Source: a virus. From it: DNA of 21,347 nucleotides. The translations under genes and the position numbers were made by a program. The stretch is taken from positions 1 to 21,347 of IMG/VR virus record IMGVR_UViG_3300047457_000946. The stretch is one strand, 5' to 3'. The notes beneath the pieces are model-generated. The model ran no database searches and was not told the DNA's origin. It was given only the letters and a program-made list of their open reading frames with translations. Below are positions 1 through 21,175 of this stretch, one piece after another; positions within the stretch are counted from its first letter, which is position 1, and each line of letters opens with the position of its first letter.

Positions 1-746
1 GTGCAGGCTACATCTTCACTGGCGACAATGACGCCAACATTATGCACAACTCCGCGACGATCAATCTGAACCTCCTGGATCAGCTAGTATCGCAGCATGC
101 CAGACTTGGCACTCCATATCCGACTGTGTTCTATTCATCGTCAGCTTGCATCTATCCAGACTTCAAGCAAACAGATTCCCAGAATCCAGACTGCCGCGAG
201 TCCTCTGCATATCCTGCCAACCCTGATTCCGAATATGGTTGGGAGAAGCTTTTCTCGGAGCGGCTGTATGCTGCATATGCGCGCAATCATGACGTGCCAG
301 TCCGCATTGCCCGATTCCATAACATCTATGGTCCCATGGGTACATGGCATGGCGGTAAAGAGAAAGCGCCCGCTGCCATCTGCCGCAAGGTTGCTGCCGC
401 GACAAACGCAATCGAAATCTGGGGCAATGGATCACAAACACGATCCTTCCTGTTCATCACAGATTGCATTGACGCTGTACAGCTCATGATGAAGTCTGAT
501 TTCCAAGGACCAGTGAATATTGGTTCAGAAGAAATGGTGACCATCAACCAGCTTGTGTCGATTGCTGAAAGCATTGCAGGTAAGAGTCTCAAGAGAGTTT
601 ACATTCCTGGTCCCATCGGAGTAGCAGGACGAAACTCACACAATGATCTGATTGAGGCTAAGCTTGGATGGAAGCCCAAGTACTCCCTCGTGGAGGGAAT
701 GGCGCTGACGTATACATGGATCGCAAGGCAGGTGCACGATGAATAA
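1..746 (+). CDS. GDP-mannose 3,5-epimerase, 5' end outside window
   Basis: The reading frame is open from base 3 to the TAA at 744-746, so the N-terminal Rossmann glycine motif is cut off by the window edge. The product is an extended short-chain dehydrogenase/reductase. Visible motifs are SSSACIYP (catalytic Ser region), YGWEK (catalytic Tyr and Lys), RFHNIYGP followed by GTWHGGKEKAPAA, GNGSQTRSF, and PVNIGSEEMV. These match plant-type GDP-mannose 3,5-epimerase closely, much better than GDP-fucose synthase or UDP-glucose epimerases. The known reaction is NAD-dependent conversion of GDP-D-mannose to GDP-L-galactose (with some GDP-L-gulose) in the cytoplasm. The end overlaps the next gene, a GT10 transferase, by 8 bases, which suggests the two act in sequence. 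An internal ATG at 42 is not the true start, because the frame continues upstream with sensible sequence. Confidence 0.88.
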   Translation, partial: AGYIFTGDNDANIMHNSATINLNLLDQLVSQHARLGTPYPTVFYSSSACIYPDFKQTDSQNPDCRESSAYPANPDSEYGWEKLFSERLYAAYARNHDVPVRIARFHNIYGPMGTWHGGKEKAPAAICRKVAAATNAIEIWGNGSQTRSFLFITDCIDAVQLMMKSDFQGPVNIGSEEMVTINQLVSIAESIAGKSLKRVYIPGPIGVAGRNSHNDLIEAKLGWKPKYSLVEGMALTYTWIARQVHDE

Positions 747-1635
747 GCTGAAACTAGGATTCACTGACACGTTTGGTGCCATCGAAAACTTCTTCACCAA
801 GGCTCTTGCGGAGCGGTATGTCATCGTTCGTGATGACGTGAATCCGAACTATCTGATCTTTGGTGACAGAAACTTTGGCACCAACAACATGTCATTCGAC
901 GAAACGAAGACCATCAAGATATTCTACACAGGCGAGAATGAGCGTCCGTTTAACTATAAGTGCCACTACTCGATTTCATTCGATCACTCTGAATTCGATG
1001 GACGCAACTATCGCCTGCCTCTGTATGTGATCTATGATCACGACAACCACTTCCGTGACGTGCCAAACACTTCGAACGTGGACAGGAAGCCAGAAGACCT
1101 CCTTGCAATCCAGGGCACCCAAACGAAAGGATTCTGTTCGTTTGTCGTCAAGAACGGTGGATGCGAGAAGCGCAATGACTGGTTCCAGTTGCTGAATAAG
1201 TACAAGCCAGTTGCATCTGGTGGTCCTCTGTTCAATAACATTGGTGGTGTGCTGCCACGTGGAGAAGATTCGGTGAAGGCGAAGCTGAACTTCCTCAACT
1301 CCTATCGGTTCAATCTGTGCTTTGAGAATGCCTCATATCCAGGATATGCAACCGAGAAGCTGTATGAAGCCCTGTGTGCCAAGACCATTCCCATCTATTG
1401 GGGATCACCGACGATTGAGGTTGACTTCAATCCCAAGGCATTCCTCAACTGGCACGACTATCAAGACGACAAGGCATTCTTCGAAGCGATCAAGGAGATT
1501 GACGAAAATCCCGACATGTATGAGGAAATGTACCTGGCTCCAATGTTCCCCGACTATCAGAGAGTCAACAAGTTCTTTGACAGGGATAGATTCCTCACCT
1601 GGTTCGATAAGAATGTATACAGGGGAGAGTGGTGA
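739..1635 (+). CDS. GT10 fucosyltransferase-family glycosyltransferase
   Basis: This 298-residue protein has the hallmarks of the alpha-1,3/1,4-fucosyltransferase family (GT10). They are YTGEN near residues 63-67, GFCSFVVKNGGC near 131-142, SGGPLFNNIGG near 160-170, and the donor-site block FENASYPGYATEKLYE near 195-210, followed by IPIYWGSPTIEVDFN near 217-231. Family members transfer L-fucose from GDP-L-fucose to N-acetylglucosamine or glucose residues of surface glycans. The length is close to that of compact bacterial members, and there is no membrane anchor. It overlaps the GDP-mannose 3,5-epimerase gene, so the donor may be GDP-L-galactose, which is 6-hydroxy-GDP-L-fucose. That is an inference from context. 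The ATG at 739 sits inside the end of the previous gene, and the stop forms a GTGA overlap with the next small gene. Confidence 0.9.
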   Translation: MNKLKLGFTDTFGAIENFFTKALAERYVIVRDDVNPNYLIFGDRNFGTNNMSFDETKTIKIFYTGENERPFNYKCHYSISFDHSEFDGRNYRLPLYVIYDHDNHFRDVPNTSNVDRKPEDLLAIQGTQTKGFCSFVVKNGGCEKRNDWFQLLNKYKPVASGGPLFNNIGGVLPRGEDSVKAKLNFLNSYRFNLCFENASYPGYATEKLYEALCAKTIPIYWGSPTIEVDFNPKAFLNWHDYQDDKAFFEAIKEIDENPDMYEEMYLAPMFPDYQRVNKFFDRDRFLTWFDKNVYRGEW

Positions 1636-2409: not shown

Positions 2410-3150
2410 ATGAAAAGCCGCGCACTGATCATCACTCCGACTGGTTGTCCGATGTTCTTTGATCCGCTGTATGATGCCCAGAAGCACTGGCGCTTTGCAC
2501 TGCCGGAGCGAACCTATGACACCATCGTTGTCGGATTCAATGATCACGTGCCAGAGCTTGAGTCATATGACCTGTTCATCAAGTACCCGATTCGGTACAA
2601 GTGGAAACAGATGCCCGAGCTTATCAAGCACCATGTGCCATTCTGGACAAACTATGACTACATTGGAGTATGGGATGACGATTACTGCACAGACATTCCA
2701 TCAGTGAATCGAGCACTCCAACTTGCCCGCAGATATGACTTCCCGTTCTTTCAACAGTCACTAACCTCTTGGACGGTGTACCCATGTCTTGAACAGAAGA
2801 AGGAACACACATTCACTCGAACCAACTTCACCGAAATGGGTGTATGCTTCTATCGCCAAGATATCTTCCGCAAGGTGCTCTGGCTTCTGGAGGCATACAA
2901 GTACAGGGAGTCGGAATGGGGGATTGACAAGATCATGTGTGACTATCTTGGTCTGCCAGCAGCCGTTGTCCATGAAACATCAATCAAGCACATGCGCCGT
3001 GAAAGCTGGTACGACAAGACCAATGCATTTGCTGAAATGGCATATTTGACGAATGAGTGGTTCCCCGAATACATGCGGACCGTTCGTGGCGAGACGGGCT
3101 ATATATTCAGAGACGTGCAACAAACACTGGCGACATTCAAAGAGGAATGA
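2410..3150 (+). CDS. putative glycosyltransferase, DUF707-like
   Basis: A strong Shine-Dalgarno AAGGGAGG (2394-2401) lies eight bases ahead of the ATG. The 246-residue soluble protein has the layout of DUF707-type GT-A-like proteins. It has a beta-strand start (ALIITPTGCP), a YIGVWDDDY block near residues 84-92 where the acidic run would bind metal and nucleotide sugar, FPFFQQSLTSW near 111-121, EMGVCFYR near 142-149, and EWGID near 169-173. Family members are thought to be glycosyltransferases, but substrates are poorly known. Lying between a GT10 enzyme and RmlB supports transfer of a sugar made in this cassette. The DUF707 assignment is from motif resemblance only. Confidence 0.65.
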   Translation: MKSRALIITPTGCPMFFDPLYDAQKHWRFALPERTYDTIVVGFNDHVPELESYDLFIKYPIRYKWKQMPELIKHHVPFWTNYDYIGVWDDDYCTDIPSVNRALQLARRYDFPFFQQSLTSWTVYPCLEQKKEHTFTRTNFTEMGVCFYRQDIFRKVLWLLEAYKYRESEWGIDKIMCDYLGLPAAVVHETSIKHMRRESWYDKTNAFAEMAYLTNEWFPEYMRTVRGETGYIFRDVQQTLATFKEE

Positions 3151-4196
3151 TGATGACAAAGAGAGTATTGATCACGGGCGGCGCAGGATTCATCGGTCAC
3201 CATATCATCGACCTGTTCCTACGAGTCACCGACTGGGAAATCGTATCACTTGACAGATTGGACTATTCGGGCAACCTGAATAGGCTCCATGATGTTGTAT
3301 CGAAGCATCCAAAGCCAGAACAGAAGCGCGTTTCTGTTGTGTGGCATGACCTGAAGGCAGAAATACGCGACTACACTGCAAACAAGATCGGCAAGGTGGA
3401 CACGATTCTCCATCTGGCAGCATCATCGCATGTTGATCGATCAATCTCGAATCCCATGGAGTTTCTCCTAGACAACACGCTTGGCACTGTCAATCTCCTA
3501 GACTATGCTCGAAAGCTAGATGGACTGGAGAGACTGATCTATTTCTCGACCGATGAAATCTTCGGTGCAGCACCTCCTGGTGTGCTGTATAAGGAATATG
3601 ATCGTTACAACTCTACCAATCCATATTCAGCGTCCAAGGCTGCAGCCGAAGAGTTCTGTGTTGCCTATGAAAACACCTACAGGCTGCCGATCTTTGTGAC
3701 ACACACGATGAACGTCTTCGGCGAGCGCCAGCATCCTGAGAAGTTCATCCCCATGAGCATCCGCAAGATTCGCGACTCGGAGAAGATTTACATCCACTCT
3801 GATCCATCAAGAACCAAAGCGGGTAGCAGGTTCTACATTTCGGCAAAGGACGTTGCGGAGTCTATGTACTTCCTTCTTCACTTGACTCCGGCCCAGCACC
3901 AGATGATCTATGATGAAATGGAAGCGTTGGGTGTTCGTTGTCCGAAGTTCAATATTGTCGGCAAGGAAGAAATCGACAACCTGTCGATGGTCAAGATTCT
4001 TGCAAATGCACAGAATAAGGACCCAGTGTATGAAATGGTGGATTTCCACACTTCACGCCCTGGTCATGATCTTCGCTATTCACTTGACGGTGGATTTATG
4101 AAACGTCTAGGTTGGGAACCACGTGTTGATTTGAAGACCCGCCTGACACAACTGACCGAATGGTCACTCAAAAACAAGGACTGGATCGAACTATGA
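3147..4196 (+). CDS. rmlB: dTDP-glucose 4,6-dehydratase (RmlB type)
   Basis: An extended short-chain dehydrogenase that converts dTDP-D-glucose to dTDP-4-keto-6-deoxy-D-glucose using bound NAD. Visible features are GGAGFIG at residues 11-17 (NAD binding), LAASSHVDRSI near 90-100, STDEIFG at 134-140 with the Asp-Glu pair typical of the dehydratase, YSASK at 160-164 (Tyr/Lys), and the C-terminal RPGHDLRYSLD block. At 349 residues it is the usual length. Three ATG codons in a row (3147, 3150, 3153) overlap the previous stop; the first gives an ATGA junction. An upstream in-frame ATG at 3057 lies inside the previous gene and is rejected. No RmlC or RmlD partner is seen in the window, but a C-methyltransferase and an O-methyltransferase follow directly. 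Confidence 0.9.
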   Translation: MMMTKRVLITGGAGFIGHHIIDLFLRVTDWEIVSLDRLDYSGNLNRLHDVVSKHPKPEQKRVSVVWHDLKAEIRDYTANKIGKVDTILHLAASSHVDRSISNPMEFLLDNTLGTVNLLDYARKLDGLERLIYFSTDEIFGAAPPGVLYKEYDRYNSTNPYSASKAAAEEFCVAYENTYRLPIFVTHTMNVFGERQHPEKFIPMSIRKIRDSEKIYIHSDPSRTKAGSRFYISAKDVAESMYFLLHLTPAQHQMIYDEMEALGVRCPKFNIVGKEEIDNLSMVKILANAQNKDPVYEMVDFHTSRPGHDLRYSLDGGFMKRLGWEPRVDLKTRLTQLTEWSLKNKDWIEL

Positions 4197-4870
4197 CAGT
4201 AATGATGCCAACACTTTTCCAGTTTTTCAATGAGTCAGAGCATTCTTCTGACAAGTGGGATGGATACTTCGGAGTGTATGAAAAGCACCTCTGCAAGTTC
4301 CCACTTGTCGGTCATCCTCTGACCGTCGTGGAAGTTGGAGTGCAACAAGGTGGTTCACTCGACATGTGGGCGAAGTACTTCCCCAAGGAGTCGAAGATCA
4401 TCGGAATCGACAACAACCCAGAATGTGCCAAGCTGAAATACTCCAACCCAGATATCAAGGTCGTCATTGGCGATCAAGGCGATCCTGCATTCTGGGACAA
4501 GTTCCTTGCAGATCATCCCGATCCGATTGACGTGTTCATTGACGATGGTGGTCATTTCATGGATCAACAGATTACGACATTCGAGAAAGTGTTTCCTCGA
4601 ATCGCACAGGGCGGAGTCTATATCTGCGAGGATTGCCACACCAGCTACATGCCATACAATGGTGGTGGTCTCCATCGCAAGGGTACCTGGATCGAATATG
4701 CCAAGTCCTATGCAGACACTCTCCATAAGGATTGGCACCAGGAGCTCGACACAGAGCAGGAGCGTAGGAATCGAATCGGTGAAGACTTGACTTCTGTCGC
4801 GTTCTATGATAGTATGGTCGTATTCGAAAAGAACGGCAAGAGGAGGCTAAAGCGTGTTTTCCCAAAATAA
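4193..4870 (+). CDS. sugar O-methyltransferase, MycE/CalO6-like
   Basis: A class I SAM-dependent methyltransferase of 225 residues. The SAM-binding motif I is VVEVGVQQGGS near residues 45-55, followed by KIIGIDNNP. IDVFIDDGGH near 112-121 and MDQQ supply the acidic and His residues used for metal binding in macrocin/mycinamicin-type sugar O-methyltransferases. YICEDCHTSY and YNGGG follow, also as in that family. The early SDKWDGYFGVYE segment matches the family's usual lead-in. Known relatives methylate hydroxyls of deoxysugars attached to natural products. The start at 4193 overlaps the rmlB stop (ATGA). An upstream in-frame ATG at 4160 is rejected. Confidence 0.82.
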   Translation: MTVMMPTLFQFFNESEHSSDKWDGYFGVYEKHLCKFPLVGHPLTVVEVGVQQGGSLDMWAKYFPKESKIIGIDNNPECAKLKYSNPDIKVVIGDQGDPAFWDKFLADHPDPIDVFIDDGGHFMDQQITTFEKVFPRIAQGGVYICEDCHTSYMPYNGGGLHRKGTWIEYAKSYADTLHKDWHQELDTEQERRNRIGEDLTSVAFYDSMVVFEKNGKRRLKRVFPK

Positions 4871-6110
4871 TGATATCGCTGTACTAGACGAGTGCCTTGC
4901 ATGTGGCTCGAATTCATTGGTCTCAGTCTTGGACCTGAAAACCCAGCCCCTTGCCAACTCCTACAAGGACTTCAAGAGTGAGAACCAATCGAGCTTTCCT
5001 CTTGCTATCAATCGATGCACCACATGCCATCATGTGCAGCTAACGCATGCCGTGAATCCTGATCTAATGTTCAAGAACTACATGTATGTGTCAGGGACTT
5101 CGGCAACCATGAATGATCATTTCAAGTGGTTCGCAAACTACACCTATGAATATTTCACAGCACTGTCGGCTCTGAAACCAACTCGCGTTCTCGACATTGG
5201 ATGCAATGACGGTTCGCAGTTGAATCACTTCAAGAACCTGGGCATGGTTACTGTTGGTGTGGACCCAGCGCTGAATCTCCATGCCATGTCGGGCAAAAAG
5301 CACATGGTCTATCCAACCTATTTTGACATGAAGTTTGTGGAGGATCATCCAGGCGTGTATGACATTCTGGTTGCACAGAATGTGTTTGCTCACAACTACA
5401 ATCCCAAGGCATTCCTGACTGCGGCACGGAATCTCATGTCGCATGACTCGCTTCTGTTTATTCAGACTTCGCAGGCTGACATGATTCTGAATAGTGAGTT
5501 CGATACGATCTACCATGAGCATGTGTCATTCTTCAATACCAGATCAATGCGAATGCTTTGCGAACGTGCTGGTCTGTATCTCATGGATTCGATCAAGTGC
5601 CCACTCCATGGCAACTCCTACATCTTTGTCGTGACCAAGAACAAGTTGGTGGCACGACCTCACAACGTCTCGAATATCGAGGAGATGGAGAAGACACGTG
5701 GACTGTACTCGCCCGTCAAATATACCGAGTATGCACTCCGCTCGAATGCAATCGCTCAGGAGCTCAAAAGCACGCTGATGGAGTACAAGAAAGAGGGATG
5801 GAAGGTCATCGGTTATGGTGCAGCCGCCAAGGGTATGACGCTGCTGAACTACGCTGGACTGGATGATACCGTCTTTGATTACATCGTTGACGACAACGTC
5901 CTTAAGCAGGGAAAGTTTACTCCTGGTACCAATATTGAAATCGTTGGATCAGCTAGAGTGACACTTGAGGACCCAAAGACTTCGCTTGTATTCGTTCCGC
6001 TTGCGTGGAACTTCTATGGCGAGATCGTGTCGAAAATCAAGCGCCTCCGTCCTGATAGTACCGACGATTACGTTCAGTACTTCCCAGAGGTTATGGTGAA
6101 AATAGCATGA
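4854..6110 (+). CDS. nucleotide-sugar C-methyltransferase, NovU/TylC3-like
   Basis: This 418-residue protein has the three-part layout of dTDP-ketosugar C-methyltransferases. An N-terminal zinc site is formed by Cys14/Cys17 (CLAC) and Cys55/Cys58 (CTTC). The SAM domain carries VLDIGCNDGSQ near residues 112-122. The catalytic YHEHVSFF segment is at 220-227. A C-terminal Rossmann-like domain carries GYGAAAKG at 320-327. Family enzymes add a methyl branch at C3 or C5 of dTDP-4-keto deoxysugars, and RmlB upstream makes the basic 4-keto precursor. The start is GTG at 4854, set by a perfect AGGAGG at 4841-4846 seven bases upstream. It overlaps the O-methyltransferase by 17 bases. All key residues appear intact. 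Confidence 0.88.
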   Translation: MFSQNNDIAVLDECLACGSNSLVSVLDLKTQPLANSYKDFKSENQSSFPLAINRCTTCHHVQLTHAVNPDLMFKNYMYVSGTSATMNDHFKWFANYTYEYFTALSALKPTRVLDIGCNDGSQLNHFKNLGMVTVGVDPALNLHAMSGKKHMVYPTYFDMKFVEDHPGVYDILVAQNVFAHNYNPKAFLTAARNLMSHDSLLFIQTSQADMILNSEFDTIYHEHVSFFNTRSMRMLCERAGLYLMDSIKCPLHGNSYIFVVTKNKLVARPHNVSNIEEMEKTRGLYSPVKYTEYALRSNAIAQELKSTLMEYKKEGWKVIGYGAAAKGMTLLNYAGLDDTVFDYIVDDNVLKQGKFTPGTNIEIVGSARVTLEDPKTSLVFVPLAWNFYGEIVSKIKRLRPDSTDDYVQYFPEVMVKIA

Positions 6111-6919
6111 GAAAGAGCCTCTACTATCACATCTACCTTCGATGGGATGTTGATCCTTGGCTGGACATGTTTTTCGAGCAGATGAAGTGTATCGAGGACG
6201 CTGGGCTCCTGGACGAATTCGATGCCTTCAATTTTATCGCTCTGAACAGGCAAGAGAACACGCTAGCCAAGAAGCTCCTGACGGATGCAGTCAGATCGTA
6301 TGTTCCAGAGTCCAAGTTCCACATCACCTTCCCGGAGAATCCATTCTTCACGGATGAAGAAATGATGGCGAACTTGGACAGTCCGAAGCTGGTCTCCGAA
6401 AACTTCACCATGCGCAAGATATACAATCATGCGATGGCGGCACCAGAGCCTCAACTGATCTGCTATATACACCAGAAGGGCATCACCAGGACAATCAAAT
6501 ACAACTCCATCGACGTGGAGTCAGTCAAGCGTTACTACTATTGGAGACAATACCTCAACTGGGGCGTGATAGAAAACTGGAAGAGGTGTGTCGAAGTAAT
6601 CGAAAAGGAAAGCTGCGATGTTGCTGGTATCAATTTCAACTTTGATCCTCTTCCTCACTACAGCGGCAATTTTTGGTGGGCGTCAACTTCGCACATCAAA
6701 CTCCTGCCTGATCCGAAAACCGTAACCTGGTTCCACGAACTACAGAAAAACTCCACCAATCACTGGCTCAGAAATGTGGCTTCCGATAGATACAGGGACG
6801 AGCAATGGTTGTGTGCCCGAGAAGGAACTAGAGTGTTCAACGTGGCTGATCTTGACCAATCAAGAAACCCTGCTGGACAACTCCTCAAGCGTAAAGACTA
6901 TGGAGAAGTGAACCGATGA
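6107..6919 (+). CDS. putative glycosyltransferase with HYSGNFWWA motif
   Basis: A 270-residue soluble protein starting at an ATGA overlap with the C-methyltransferase. It contains YIHQKG near residues 120-125, a YYYWRQYL stretch near 143-150, GINF near 174-177, and HYSGNFWWAS near 184-193. Similar HTKG and HYSGNFWWA motifs occur in glycosyltransferase-like proteins from surface-polysaccharide clusters and large viruses (RgpF-like type). I recognise the pattern but cannot name the donor or acceptor. As the last gene of the sugar cassette, it could transfer the methylated deoxysugar. It ends in an ATGA overlap with a small unknown gene, so transcription runs on towards the polymerase gene. Confidence 0.6.
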   Translation: MRKSLYYHIYLRWDVDPWLDMFFEQMKCIEDAGLLDEFDAFNFIALNRQENTLAKKLLTDAVRSYVPESKFHITFPENPFFTDEEMMANLDSPKLVSENFTMRKIYNHAMAAPEPQLICYIHQKGITRTIKYNSIDVESVKRYYYWRQYLNWGVIENWKRCVEVIEKESCDVAGINFNFDPLPHYSGNFWWASTSHIKLLPDPKTVTWFHELQKNSTNHWLRNVASDRYRDEQWLCAREGTRVFNVADLDQSRNPAGQLLKRKDYGEVNR

Positions 6920-12547: not shown

Positions 12548-13601
12548 CCTGATTAGCAAAATCAAAAAGAATTCGACAATCAAGGCAACACAAGTTCTCA
12601 CTGAACAGACATTGCTTCACGATAAGGATTCTATCACCACTCCGGTGCCTATGATCAACGTCGCCCTTTCTGGGCGCGTTGACGGCGGACTGATTCCAGG
12701 GCTAACTGTCCTGGCAGGTCCGTCGAAGCATTTCAAATCCCTGTTCGCACTAGTCATAGGTGCTGCATTCTTGAAGAAGTATCCCGAGGGCATCCTTCTT
12801 TTCTATGACTCGGAGTTCGGAACACCAACCAAGTATTTCGAGAACCTTGAAATGGACATGGACAGAATCGTCCACACTCCAATCACGAACATCGAAGAAT
12901 TGAAGCATGACCTGGTTAGCCAGCTCGAAGGATTCAACCGCACAGATAAGGTGTGCATCATCGTTGACTCCGTAGGCAATCTAGCTTCCAAGAAGGAAGT
13001 CGAAGATGCCAAAGACGCCAAGTCTGTCGCCGACATGACTCGCGCCAAAGCAATGAAGTCCTTGTTCCGCATCGTGACACCGTACTTGACGGTCAAGGAC
13101 ATTCCACTCATTGCAATCAACCACACATACAAGACACAAGAAATGTTCTCCAAGGACGTTGTCTCTGGAGGCACTGGCATCTATTATTCTGCTGGTGATA
13201 TCTGGATCATTGGACGCCAGCAAGACAAAGACGAGAAGACCAAGAGAGTCGAGGGCTATCACTTCATCATCAACATTGAGAAGTCCCGTCTTGTCCGTGA
13301 GAAGATGAAGATTCCAATCTCGGTATCGTATGAACACGGCATTAATCGCTGGTCTGGTCTCCTAGAGAATGCAATCGAGGCTGGGATCATCGTCAAGCCG
13401 ATCGCTGGTCGCTATGAGCGTCCTACTGGCAAGTACTCTGGCAAGAGATACACAGAGGACGAGATTCTGACATTCGATGCCCTATGGCAGGACATTCTCG
13501 CGACAACTGATCTTCCGGAATACATCCGCAATAAATACTCGGGCTCTGGCTCTGGAAGTCTGATTCAAGAGGGAGACTCCGACGATGCAGATACCGACTG
13601 A
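12537..13601 (+). CDS. uvsX: UvsX RecA-like recombinase
   Basis: A 354-residue homologue of T4 UvsX, the strand-exchange ATPase used in recombination-dependent replication and repair. Walker A is AGPSKHFKS at about 60-68 and Walker B is VCIIVDS at about 139-145. The segments YDSEFG, NLASKKEVEDA, SDMTRAK-like ADMTRAKAMKSLFRIVTPY (split here as family landmarks) and AINHTYKTQEMFSKDV follow T4 UvsX almost residue for residue. The C-terminus is shorter than in T4 (391 residues) but ends in the typical acidic tail (GDSDDADTD). The ATG follows AGAGGAG and overlaps the membrane-protein gene by 11 bases. Its own promoter appears to lie upstream at 12270. Confidence 0.96.
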   Translation: MVSDLISKIKKNSTIKATQVLTEQTLLHDKDSITTPVPMINVALSGRVDGGLIPGLTVLAGPSKHFKSLFALVIGAAFLKKYPEGILLFYDSEFGTPTKYFENLEMDMDRIVHTPITNIEELKHDLVSQLEGFNRTDKVCIIVDSVGNLASKKEVEDAKDAKSVADMTRAKAMKSLFRIVTPYLTVKDIPLIAINHTYKTQEMFSKDVVSGGTGIYYSAGDIWIIGRQQDKDEKTKRVEGYHFIINIEKSRLVREKMKIPISVSYEHGINRWSGLLENAIEAGIIVKPIAGRYERPTGKYSGKRYTEDEILTFDALWQDILATTDLPEYIRNKYSGSGSGSLIQEGDSDDADTD

Positions 13602-14205
13602 TGATGAATATTATTCACTGTATTTCGAATGCAAGGAATACATTGACAAGAACTGCATTGTACGGGACACCAGAATGCCAGGCAAGGCGCCTGGCACCTG
13701 GTACTCCTGGATATTCTACATGAGACGTGGTCTCCTTGACAGAGCGTTTATGTCCGCAATCTCCAAGCTGTTCATCTATCGAATCAACCAAGAGATTGGA
13801 CACTTCGATTTCCAAATAGCAGGACTCGAAACAGGAGCAACTCCACTCGTGGTTGCTCTTCCTATCCACCTCCATCGGCACAAGATTGACGTGCATTCTT
13901 TTTCGATCCGAAAGGAAAAAAAGAAGTACGGACTACTGAACTGGATCGAAGGAGTTCCAAACGACAAGCCTGTTCTATTGGTGGATGATCTGTGCAATTC
14001 GTCCATGTCTATGCGTCAAGCGTACAATGTTCTGAAAGAGGAAGGGATACCTACACTGCCCTGGGCTTTCAGCGTAGTCAACAAGTACAATCACGGAGTC
14101 CACGATCCAATACGAGGAGTAACCGACATGTATCTCCCTCATGATATGCGAGTCGTTACCCTTTTCAGGATGGATGACTTCAACCTGAAAAACCCATCAC
14201 ACTGA
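13585..14205 (+). CDS. orotate phosphoribosyltransferase-like protein
   Basis: A 206-residue protein with a type I phosphoribosyltransferase core. GLETGATPL (residues 80-88), then SIRKEKKKYG (107-116), match the Arg-Lys-rich loop of orotate phosphoribosyltransferase. IEGV (121-124) and LLVDDLCNSSMS (131-142) form the PRPP-binding loop, with the acidic pair Asp134-Asp135. The PRPP loop has NSSMS where cellular enzymes have TTGGS. Known orotate phosphoribosyltransferases join orotate to PRPP in pyrimidine synthesis. Here the base acceptor is unknown. The start lies inside the uvsX end (17-base overlap), so it is translated with the recombination and helicase genes. About 80 extra N-terminal residues precede the core. 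Confidence 0.8.
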   Translation: MQIPTDDEYYSLYFECKEYIDKNCIVRDTRMPGKAPGTWYSWIFYMRRGLLDRAFMSAISKLFIYRINQEIGHFDFQIAGLETGATPLVVALPIHLHRHKIDVHSFSIRKEKKKYGLLNWIEGVPNDKPVLLVDDLCNSSMSMRQAYNVLKEEGIPTLPWAFSVVNKYNHGVHDPIRGVTDMYLPHDMRVVTLFRMDDFNLKNPSH

Positions 14206-14215
14206 GGAGAGTATC

Positions 14216-14539
14216 ATGAAACTAGGCCGAGATTTCATTTTCCGCGACGATCTGAAAAAAGACACGGTGCCGATACAACTTCTAGATTGCATTTTCGAAG
14301 ATATTGTGTTAAGATACACCAATGTGTCCATAGTCGAAAAAGAGAGCAATGAAGCAGTCGTTAGGTTCGACTATGAGCTAATAGAAGTTCCTGGGGAGTT
14401 TACCGAGAAGAAACTCCGACGCAACAAGCAGTTTCAGGAACATCTGGGCCTTGTTTTGAACACGCTGATATTGGATGTGGTAGAGCAAACGGAAAGATCG
14501 AATGAGCATAGAGAAAACAATCCTCCGAAATCTTCTTAA
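14216..14539 (+). CDS. 107-residue protein of unknown function between uvsX and gp41
   Basis: A GAGGAGAG ribosome site just upstream supports the ATG at 14216. The protein has a beta-rich N-terminal half (GRDFIFRDDL, VRFDYELIEVPG) and a helical C-terminal half. Its last 38 bases overlap the gp41 helicase gene. Small ORFs in this place are common in T4-like phages, but I do not recognise a function. Confidence 0.68.
   Translation: MKLGRDFIFRDDLKKDTVPIQLLDCIFEDIVLRYTNVSIVEKESNEAVVRFDYELIEVPGEFTEKKLRRNKQFQEHLGLVLNTLILDVVEQTERSNEHRENNPPKSS
14287..14315 (+). promoter_or_regulatory. possible sigma70 promoter for gp41
   Basis: TTGCAT (14287-14292) and TAAGAT (14310-14315) are 17 bases apart, with TGT ahead of the -10 (extended -10). 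It lies inside the small gene before gp41, about 180 bases before the helicase start. The hexamers are weaker than at 7533, 10432 and 12270. Confidence 0.42.
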
Positions 14540-15875
14540 GGACGACCAGTTCACGAGAAAGGCTCTTCCCTTTTTGAAGGACGAGTACTTTTTCGAGGAA
14601 GACGATAGGACACTTTTCTCTACCATTCGGGACTTTGTACTCAAGTACAACACCAATCCGACCGAAGACGCCCTTGCTATCGAGATTTCATCGAAGCAAG
14701 GGCTAACGGACATGACTGTCAAGAATATCGAGGCAACACTTGCAGAGATCAGGGCTTCCAAGGATACAAAGGAGCCCCATCTGAAATGGTTGGTCGACCA
14801 CACGGAGCAATTCTGTCAGGACAAATCTCTGTATAACGCCATCATGAAGTCCATCGATATCATGAAGGACGAGAAGGGACATACATCCAAGGGAGCCATA
14901 CCGAAGCTGTTGTCCGATGCCCTGGCTGTATCATTTGATCCAAACGTGGGACACGATTATCTAGAGCAGTCGGAGGATCGATTCGAGTACTATCACCGAG
15001 TGCATGAGAAGATTGCCTTCGACCTCGAATTCATGAACCTCATTACCAAGGGTGGACTACCAAAGAAAACTCTGAATATCATCCTTGCAGGCACGGGTGC
15101 AGGCAAGAGCTTGTTCATGTGTCACTGTGCAGCCGCCAATCTGGCAATGGGCAAGAATGTTCTCTACATAACAATGGAGCTTGCAGAAGAGGAAGTCGCC
15201 AAGAGAATTGACGCGAACCTCCTGAATACATCATTCGATGACCTTATGGTTATGCCGAAGGACATGTACCATAAGCGAGTATCTGCCCTCAAAGCAAAGA
15301 CGACTGGTAAGCTGATCATCAAGGAATATCCAACAGCCGCCGCGTCGACCTTGCACTTCAAGACTCTCTTGAACGAACTGTTCCTGAAGAAATCCTTCAG
15401 ACCAGATATCATCTATGTGGACTATCTGAACATTTGCTGTTCGGCGCGCGTCAAGCCGGGAGCCAATATCAACTCCTACACCTACATTAAGTCGATTGCC
15501 GAAGAGCTTCGAGGACTGGCAGTAGAGTTCGAAGTGCCGCTGGTTTCTGCGACACAGACTAACCGAACAGGTTTCGATAGCTCGGACGTGGACCTGACCA
15601 ATACGTCAGAGTCGTTTGGACTACCAGCCACTGCCGACTTCATGTTTGCACTGATCACATCCGAGGAACTGGAACAACTGGGTCAAATCCAAGTCAAGCA
15701 GCTAAAGAATCGCTTTGCTGATCCATCACAGAACAAGCGATTCCTTCTGGGTATCGACAAGAGCAAGATGAAGCTATTCGACTTGGAGGACTCTGCACAA
15801 CAGGACGTAGCCGATTCTGGTCAGGATCGACCAGTTATGGACCACAAGAGCAAATTCAAAGCGCTGAAGGTGTAA
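14502..15875 (+). CDS. 41: replicative DNA helicase, T4 gp41 (DnaB type)
   Basis: A 457-residue RecA-fold hexameric helicase that unwinds DNA ahead of the polymerase and loads with primase. Landmarks shared with T4 gp41 are GAIPKLLSDALAVSFD near 131-146, ITKGG near 181-185, Walker A AGTGAGKS (196-203), LYITMELAEEEVAKRIDAN near 221-239, Walker B IIYVDY (303-308), SYTYIKSIAEELRGLAVE, and SESFGLPATADFM. The length is near T4's 475. The ATG at 14502 overlaps the previous ORF by 38 bases and lies in good match to the start of the T4 protein. No primase (gp61) or helicase loader (gp59) is seen nearby. Confidence 0.96.
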   Translation: MSIEKTILRNLLKDDQFTRKALPFLKDEYFFEEDDRTLFSTIRDFVLKYNTNPTEDALAIEISSKQGLTDMTVKNIEATLAEIRASKDTKEPHLKWLVDHTEQFCQDKSLYNAIMKSIDIMKDEKGHTSKGAIPKLLSDALAVSFDPNVGHDYLEQSEDRFEYYHRVHEKIAFDLEFMNLITKGGLPKKTLNIILAGTGAGKSLFMCHCAAANLAMGKNVLYITMELAEEEVAKRIDANLLNTSFDDLMVMPKDMYHKRVSALKAKTTGKLIIKEYPTAAASTLHFKTLLNELFLKKSFRPDIIYVDYLNICCSARVKPGANINSYTYIKSIAEELRGLAVEFEVPLVSATQTNRTGFDSSDVDLTNTSESFGLPATADFMFALITSEELEQLGQIQVKQLKNRFADPSQNKRFLLGIDKSKMKLFDLEDSAQQDVADSGQDRPVMDHKSKFKALKV

Positions 15876-20080: not shown

Positions 20081-21175
20081 ATGACAGAGAAGATTGTACG
20101 CACCGCGACCAAGGCTTCTGGTGGAGTTACGCCGGAGGAAATGATCAAGCTCAAAGAGCATGCGGAAATGTGGAAGAAGCGTATTCTTCGCACCAAGTCC
20201 GTGGCCGAAGATTTTCCCAAGCTTCGCGATGCGATCTTTGGCATCTATGAGGCTGCCGACAAGCCGCGTCCAATCGTGATCCTGGCTCCGTCGCCAATCG
20301 CCATGGCATATGCATATGGTGCGGCGGCTGCGATCTGGCATGCTCGCTCAAAGGGCGAGAAGATTGATATCAATTTGGGCAATGATCATGTGTCGGACAT
20401 CATCCGCCTTGCCATCCAGGAAACCAAGAATCCTATCTCGGCTGCCGTTCGAATGGCTAAGCCGTCGGACACGGTTCTGGCTGATGCTCGGGCGACATGC
20501 TTCAATGCTGCCGGGCAGTTTGGCATCGATTGTGCCAAGCGCTGGAACAACGTGGTGCAGTGTGGTGCATATTCTGGTTTCGACGATGCATATTTCACTG
20601 CCTTCCGTGACGTGATCGGGCTCAAGCTGCCGATCTTTGAGAAGTACAAGCACTGGGAGCAGGCGGCAATCTATGGAACTCTCCGTGTCATGCACGAAAA
20701 GTTCTGCATCGTGTCGGATTTCCCTGAAGTTTTCAAGATGGATGAGGAAAATCGCTCGCACAATCAGACTGGCCCATCACATCGTTGGGCTGATGGTTGG
20801 GAATTGTATCACTGGCATGGTGTTCGCATTCCGAACGAGTGGATCAAGACTCCTGGTGCCCTAACGGCCAAGGTAGCCATCACTTGGAAGAATATCGAAC
20901 AGCGTCGTGCTGCATGCGAACTCTTGGGTTGGGCTAAAATTCTTGAGGAATTGAATGCCAAGGTTATCGACACCGATGCCGACCCAGAAATCGGTGAACT
21001 TCTGGAGGTTGATATTCCAGACATTGGAAAGGAAAAGTTTCTTCGGGCTCTTTGTGGCACTGGTCGAACCTTTGCAATCCCGGTTCCTCCGAACATGAAG
21101 ACTGCGATGGAGGCTAACGCCTGGACGTATGGTCTCAATCTCGATGACTTCAAGGTTCCTGAAGTTCGTACATAA
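20081..21175 (+). CDS. DUF6745-like protein
   Basis: A 364-residue soluble protein. From about residue 205 it has FCIVSDFPEVFKMDE, then NQTGPSHRWADGWELYHWHG and VRIPNEWI, a block I recognise as the core of DUF6745 proteins (the family pattern is a short repeat of D-P-x-G-P and DG-x-x-x-Y-x-x-HG). Its end has a charged region (EQRRAACELLGWAKIL), also typical. The N-terminal 200 residues include a PSPIAMAYAYGAAAAIW stretch. The function of the family is unknown to me. The gene is a separate unit with its own promoter and dyad. Its codons look richer in G and C than those of the small genes before it. Confidence 0.8.
   Translation: MTEKIVRTATKASGGVTPEEMIKLKEHAEMWKKRILRTKSVAEDFPKLRDAIFGIYEAADKPRPIVILAPSPIAMAYAYGAAAAIWHARSKGEKIDINLGNDHVSDIIRLAIQETKNPISAAVRMAKPSDTVLADARATCFNAAGQFGIDCAKRWNNVVQCGAYSGFDDAYFTAFRDVIGLKLPIFEKYKHWEQAAIYGTLRVMHEKFCIVSDFPEVFKMDEENRSHNQTGPSHRWADGWELYHWHGVRIPNEWIKTPGALTAKVAITWKNIEQRRAACELLGWAKILEELNAKVIDTDADPEIGELLEVDIPDIGKEKFLRALCGTGRTFAIPVPPNMKTAMEANAWTYGLNLDDFKVPEVRT

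Follow-up and report, generated by a model that had tools for sequence, protein, structure and literature searches.

Two overlapping genes at the start of a phage DNA fragment encode a member of the GDP-mannose 3,5-epimerase (GME) family and a glycosyltransferase of the fucosyltransferase family GT10. We found that this pair probably makes and transfers L-galactose, where the donor, the acceptor and the biological role are what we infer. The family memberships, the active-site residues, the coupling and conservation of the two genes and an exchange of GME with gmd plus fcl, the genes of the fucose route, can be read from the sequences themselves.

The fragment (21,347 nt; IMG/VR virus record IMGVR_UViG_3300047457_000946, positions 1–21,347) is the whole stretch of DNA that was analysed and is called the window below; the genes and motifs described between positions 1 and 6919 lie on its plus strand. 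It carries T4-like replication genes for a gp43 DNA polymerase, a UvsX-like recombinase and a DnaB-like helicase. The best isolate match of its gp43 reached at most 48.5% identity, indicating that the phage is T4-like but remote from cultured phages. Sugar-nucleotide and transferase genes form a cluster within this T4-like core genome, as in the surface-glycan (LPS) cassettes of T4-like marine phages. No tRNA was found in the 21,347-nt window. A weak phosphoribosyltransferase match lies between the UvsX and helicase genes (13585–14205), and a DUF6745 protein is encoded at the far end of the fragment (20081–21175). The gp43 gene is uninterrupted in the window, and it is split by about 1 kb in the related contigs L003 (10488–11601) and L090 (17509–18496), the latter interruption containing an unrelated ORF; an intron or intein is possible in both.

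The first gene belongs to the GME family

The GME gene occupies positions 1–746 of the window and is read from base 3 (247 codons). Its ORF (3–746) is open at the 5′ edge of the contig and ends with the stop codon TAA at 744–746, so that about the 3′ two thirds of the gene are present; measured against the 346-residue GME of the related contig L083, some 99 N-terminal codons lie off the contig. The first residue of the window protein corresponds to about residue 100 in the complete L083/L003 protein, so that the NAD-binding motif also falls off the contig, and in the L083 GME this GxxGxxG motif reads GAGGFIG. When the protein was searched against the PDB with phmmer, the best matches were all GMEs (2C59, 2C54, 2C5A, 2C5E and 8SG0; E 1e-72 to 1e-73), and the next family followed at 5e-18, about 55 orders of magnitude weaker. 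Alignment with Arabidopsis GME (AtGME) revealed 117 identical residues among 237 aligned (49%). These results bear out the earlier note, in which the motifs of this gene were matched to GME, but its description as plant-type was overstated: the characterised bacterial GME has a similar identity to plant GME, about 50% (PMC6678494), and the nearest relatives of the window protein are those of other phages (full-length L083/L003, 81%).

The active site was then compared with AtGME. All equivalents checked were found in the window (S143, C145, Y174, K178, N203, E216, K217, K225, Q241, R243 and R306), and 12 catalytic or substrate residues were invariant across 91 distinct phage GMEs. The S143-A144-C145 equivalents, comprising the SDR serine and the catalytic acid cysteine, are encoded at 141–149 and are identical in 91 of 91 phage GMEs. 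The YxxxK motif (Y174 and K178 equivalents) lies at 234–248, the E216-K217-A218 equivalents, with K217 as the catalytic base, at 360–368, and the equivalent of R306, which lowers the pKa of the catalytic cysteine, at 630–632; none of the equivalents in the list above varied in the 91 phage GMEs. The residues for C3/C5 epimerisation are thus in place (C145, K217 and R306 equivalents), and an active site lacking them, which had been named as a sign of ordinary fucose synthesis, was not what we found. GME differs from GDP-L-fucose synthase in having lysine rather than histidine as the base and arginine rather than lysine as the residue that acidifies the cysteine (PMC8787198), and the window epimerase carries the GME set, a lysine base and an arginine helper. 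An identity as GDP-L-fucose synthase (Fcl) was rejected on these key sites and on a score of 76 bits in NF047922 against a cut-off of 500, true phage Fcls scoring 444–473 bits in the fucose synthase model. UDP-glucose 4-epimerase, the usual GenBank label, was also rejected, with 45 bits in the GalE model against a cut-off of 262 and with GME structures far ahead. Collectively, these data established that window 3–746 encodes a GME family member, whose activity is predicted.

We next considered which product of the enzyme would be used. In the predicted reaction, GDP-D-mannose from the host would become GDP-L-galactose, and GDP-L-gulose would arise as a by-product. Should GDP-L-gulose, from a single C5 epimerisation, be the useful product, the GT10 would be an L-gulosyltransferase. 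Characterised GMEs do yield some GDP-L-gulose (PMC8787198 and PMC6678494), and the product ratio is not readable from sequence. However, GDP-L-galactose is the main product of the characterised enzymes, and L-galactose has the fucose configuration and is accepted by fucosyltransferases, whereas L-gulose differs at C3. We therefore regard the gulose reading as improbable and consider L-galactose the likelier sugar.

The second gene encodes a GT10 transferase

The adjoining gene (739–1635) encodes a 298-residue GT10 glycosyltransferase, assigned by Pfam domains, its match to Helicobacter pylori fucosyltransferase (HpFucT) and its fold. Both the GT10 C-terminal and FucT_N domains (PF00852 and PF18025) scored above the Pfam cut-offs, PF00852 with 63.9 bits against a gathering score of 23.9. 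The match to HpFucT had an E value of 2e-36, with 44% identity across 129 aligned positions in its C-terminal domain. Equivalents of HpFucT E95, R195, N240, Y246, E249 and K250, which we take to be the donor and catalytic residues, were all present in the alignment. An AlphaFold2 model built from 21 viral sequences (pLDDT 84) was matched by Foldseek to the HpFucT structures 2NZX, 2NZW and 2NZY, with and without GDP-fucose (E 1e-17 to 1e-19, probability 1.00), so that the window GT10 resembles HpFucT in both fold and donor residues. The description of the second gene as a fucosyltransferase-type enzyme is supported on each of these counts. No convincing donor-site position separating L-galactose users from L-fucose users emerged from the GT10 alignment, because the close GT10 family holds only one gmd-linked genotype.

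GME and GT10 are coupled and conserved

The two genes share the 8 bases ATGAATAA at 739–746, which hold both the GT10 start (ATG at 739) and the GME stop. The overlap described in the earlier note was therefore real; a GME–GT10 fusion was rejected, as these are two separate genes. The spacing of the overlap was identical in L003, L083, L091 and L092. We found 46 viral contigs that encode the GT10 family of the window, 41 of which had enough upstream sequence to be informative. GME lay within one gene upstream of GT10 in 38 of these 41 (28 directly adjacent and 10 one gene away), and the pairing is not due to chance. With the family assignments, the overlap and this adjacency, the gene pair as first observed was confirmed overall. 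Where a gene stands between GME and GT10 it has one of two sizes (L086, 8928–10001; L087, 9285–9989; L099, 8901–9995). Of the two intervening genes that were scanned, one looks like an FkbM-type methyltransferase and the other like a NanM-like sugar O-methyltransferase, which suggests that O-methylation may occur on the transferred sugar or on the residue next to it.

When the window was compared with L083, both genes gave pN of 0.10–0.14 and pS of 0.76–0.89, with synonymous sites near saturation, revealing that the pair is under strong purifying selection. This bears on whether the pair might be decaying or neutral filler DNA ('stuffer'), since Sullivan et al. (2010) did not decide whether the large LPS clusters of cyanophages serve as headful filler (PMC3037559). 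The strong selection, the invariance of the catalytic residues in the 91 phage GMEs and the retention of gene order across about 40 contigs all argue against filler, which we consider highly improbable; a pair kept for its function is the reading followed below.

A wider sugar cassette surrounds the pair

Downstream of GT10, its constant partner (2410–3150) is a GT-A-fold glycosyltransferase-like protein with a DDD motif (AlphaFold2 pLDDT 92), which gave weak Foldseek matches to GT-A enzymes including the WrtF fucosyltransferase (TMq about 0.5). It is followed by an RmlB-like NDP-hexose 4,6-dehydratase (3147–4196; TIGR01181, 228.6 bits), a Methyltransf_24 family methyltransferase (4160–4870), an NDP-sugar C-methyltransferase-like protein (4854–6110; Pfam Methyltransf_13/23/14) and a conserved cassette protein without a Pfam match that was recognised by its conserved order (6107–6919). 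An assignment of the SDR at 3147–4196 as Gmd was rejected, with 51.6 bits in TIGR01472 against a cut-off of 415, where true phage Gmds score 540–569 bits. In the relatives the order from GT10 to gp43 is constant, with the GT-A protein, the RmlB-like dehydratase and, in most, the methyltransferases and the conserved protein, and the cassette sits upstream of gp43. Upstream of GME the relatives carry a small ORF without a family assignment, a glycosyltransferase-like ORF and a GT2; some also encode an FkbM methyltransferase and a PstS-like protein there.

Several further observations concern this neighbourhood. The dehydratase, the Methyltransf_24 protein and the C-methyltransferase (3147–6110) form a second sugar pathway beside GME–GT10, whose product is probably a C-methylated 6-deoxyhexose. 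In the relative L113, the C-methyltransferase gene is followed by genes for a hexapeptide acyltransferase and an aminotransferase of the DegT type (13522–15178), pointing to an acylated amino-deoxy sugar. Upstream of its cassette the same contig encodes a PstS-like phosphate-binding protein (5168–6142); PstS-like genes are known from marine T4-like phages. Near the cassette in L083 (1–902, minus strand) lies a tail-fibre-like repeat protein with a long run of an NTTGSYNAAVG-type motif.

GME and gmd+fcl exchange beside fucosyltransferases

GME and gmd+fcl both lead from GDP-mannose to a galacto-configured GDP-L-hexose, and the two products differ only at the 6-hydroxyl. In 36 related records (longest 140 kb, most of them fragments) neither gmd nor fcl was found above the curated cut-offs, and the best scorers in these models were GME and the RmlB-like gene themselves. 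Across the 36 relatives and 28 other records, the curated-model search returned true gmd and fcl scores only in S-SCSM1, S-SKS1 and S-SRM01. The check for a gmd/fcl pair upstream of the epimerase, proposed with the original reading, was thus negative in the 36 relatives, and the flank of the window itself lies beyond the contig.

Three contigs with a GT10 of the window's family (53–54% identical to that of the window) were without GME. One of them, L115, carries two genes downstream of GT10, gmd (70% identical to that of S-SCSM1) and fcl (63%); L114 breaks off within the beginning of this gmd, and L119 ends right after GT10. As their GT10s are identical, we rejected these contigs as independent exceptions and counted them as one case, a single phage genotype.

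The pattern was also seen among isolates. All 14 cyanophage isolate genomes with GME that were sampled carry a GT10 or GT11, which is the gene directly after GME in 8, and gmd+fcl stand alongside GME in only one of the 14, S-SCSM1. GT10 and GT11 were absent from 11 of 12 cyanophage control genomes without GME; the twelfth, P-SSM2, has a GT11 together with gmd (539 bits) and fcl (462 bits). S-SKS1 and S-SRM01 carry a GT10 with gmd+fcl and without GME, and gmd+fcl were therefore present in all three fucosyltransferase-bearing isolates without GME that were checked. The GT10 of S-SRM01 is 55% identical to that of S-SM2, which follows GME, and this reads as a second switch inside one GT10 branch; the supply label (GME or gmd+fcl) needs three changes on the GT10 tree. 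Many ACG-2014f records have a GT11 with gmd and are absent from the list of GME carriers, which comprises 37 phage records. Phage B23 and the fragment AG-345-E08, both of which carry a GT11, stand outside the assignment to GME or gmd+fcl. Fisher's test gave 1.6e-6 for the association of GME with a fucosyltransferase-family gene and, within the fucosyltransferase carriers, 0.006 for GME against gmd+fcl, values that describe the pattern and are not strict probabilities, because the phages are related and the samples were hand-chosen.

Since GME and gmd+fcl swap beside the same fucosyltransferase families, GME seems to stand in for the fucose route, taking the place that gmd+fcl hold in related phages; in at least one phage, S-SCSM1, which has all three genes, it is an addition. 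The simplest account of the exchange is that the transferase works with the product of the supply genes present beside it. Together with fucosyltransferases known to use GDP-L-galactose (PMC8787198), it suggests that the window pair makes and transfers L-galactose. The pathway proposed in the earlier note is accordingly supported in part, by the GME active site, the lack of gmd and fcl above cut-off in the 36 relatives and the reciprocal pattern; its remaining steps, the donor choice of the GT10 and the acceptor, are ones that we infer.

That choice would be different if the GT10 were an ordinary fucosyltransferase working on host GDP-L-fucose, with the GDP-L-galactose of GME feeding another transferase of the cassette, for example the protein at 2410–3150. 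The donor residues of the GT10 are the same as those of HpFucT, other glycosyltransferases are constant neighbours, and the GT-A protein is weakly WrtF-like in fold. No GDP-L-fucose supply gene scored above cut-off in the 36 relatives, which counts against a GDP-L-fucose-dependent enzyme unless the host provides the donor. Bacterial relatives favour the fucose reading in part: among 80 bacterial loci with the nearest GT10s, gmd lay within 8 kb in 8, with fcl also present in 6 of those, and gmd/fcl adjoined in some loci of Helicobacter relatives. No sugar-supply gene was found within 8 kb of the nearest cellular GT10s, those of a Comamonadaceae MAG (L153) and an Alphaproteobacteria MAG (L154). 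GME occurred in only one of the 80 loci, a MAG in which gmd, GME (63%), fcl and GT10 stand together (L205), suggesting that the linkage to GME is mainly a phage habit among these GT10s. Against a host fucose supply, GT10 follows GME directly or one gene away in the 38 contigs counted above, gmd+fcl appear where GME is absent, and GT11 enzymes likewise adjoin GME in other cyanophages. We consider an ordinary fucosyltransferase unlikely, and prefer the reading in which the GT10 takes the L-galactose made by its partner.

Discussion

GME genes beside fucosyltransferases are not new to phages, as a 2022 study of S-SCSM1 named GME, gmd, fcl and several fucosyltransferases and referred to a role in LPS that contains L-galactose (PMC9602691); the pathway is accordingly only partly new to phages, although S-SCSM1 also carries gmd and fcl. 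Its cluster (ORF121–134) resembles that of the window in having a phage GME (ORF123, 56% identical to the window GME) followed by sugar transferases, including an alpha-1,2-fucosyltransferase and a NodZ-type fucosyltransferase (PMC9602691). Unlike the relatives of the window, its GME is immediately preceded by gmd and fcl, and S-SCSM1 gave no GT10 match. The cyanophages S-SM2, S-T4 and Sf-CH8 are closer in arrangement, with GME and then an overlapping GT10 and with no gmd or fcl above cut-off in the genome, but their GT10s form a separate, distant branch with different downstream genes. Their annotations read 'UDP-glucose 4-epimerase', 'NAD-dependent dehydratase', 'putative transferase' or 'hypothetical' and never GME or GT10. 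In GenBank, 'UDP-glucose 4-epimerase' and 'nucleotide-sugar epimerase' are widespread names for cyanophage GMEs (S-SM2, S-SSM7, S-CAM9, S-T4 and others). Our literature search, which covered few subscription journals, returned no paper describing a GME–fucosyltransferase pair that takes over from the fucose route.

Outside phages, Methylacidiphilum fumariolicum has a prokaryotic GME with the same Cys/Lys/Arg active site, which adjoins a glycosyltransferase and lies near a methyltransferase; it differs from the window in being chromosomal, and the available part of the report does not describe the partner glycosyltransferase as a GT10 (PMC6678494). Arabidopsis GME (2C59) and promiscuous fucosyltransferases offer, in principle, the same two activities: AtFucTA, a plant alpha1,3-enzyme, and MmFUT8 (FUT8) transfer L-galactose from GDP-L-galactose made by GME, giving L-galactosylated glycans (PMC8787198). 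Unlike the window pair, plant GME serves ascorbate and the cell wall, and the transfer of L-galactose by fucosyltransferases is a substitution for fucose without a dedicated gene pair.

In the mechanism that we propose, the overlapping GT10 would pass the L-hexose from GME to a glycan acceptor, and the wider cassette would make an RmlB-type 6-deoxy sugar, C-methylate sugars and add further residues. The likeliest target would be the LPS or surface polysaccharide of the infected host and, less likely, the virion would be decorated. Cassettes of similar type in T4-like marine phages have been interpreted as changing the host LPS to prevent co-infection (PMC7029224). A bolder proposal, to which we give a little less than an even chance, is that the phage GT10 clade switched from fucose to L-galactose when gmd+fcl were swapped for one GME, so that a dedicated L-galactosyltransferase marks the host surface or virion. 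The sugar added by such an enzyme may be one that the host otherwise might not make.

The exchange of GME with gmd+fcl beside related fucosyltransferases offers a natural experiment on donor choice in GT10 and GT11 enzymes, and the phage genes would be candidates for a prokaryotic GME and an L-galactosyltransferase with which rare sugars could be synthesised. Whether phage LPS cassettes are functional or filler (PMC3037559) becomes a question testable with two purified proteins. Under the usual gene names, 'UDP-glucose 4-epimerase' and 'transferase', the pathway has been hidden in annotations. If the reading is true, many aquatic T4-like phages would carry a short L-galactosylation route, in which one enzyme instead of two provides the activated L-sugar.
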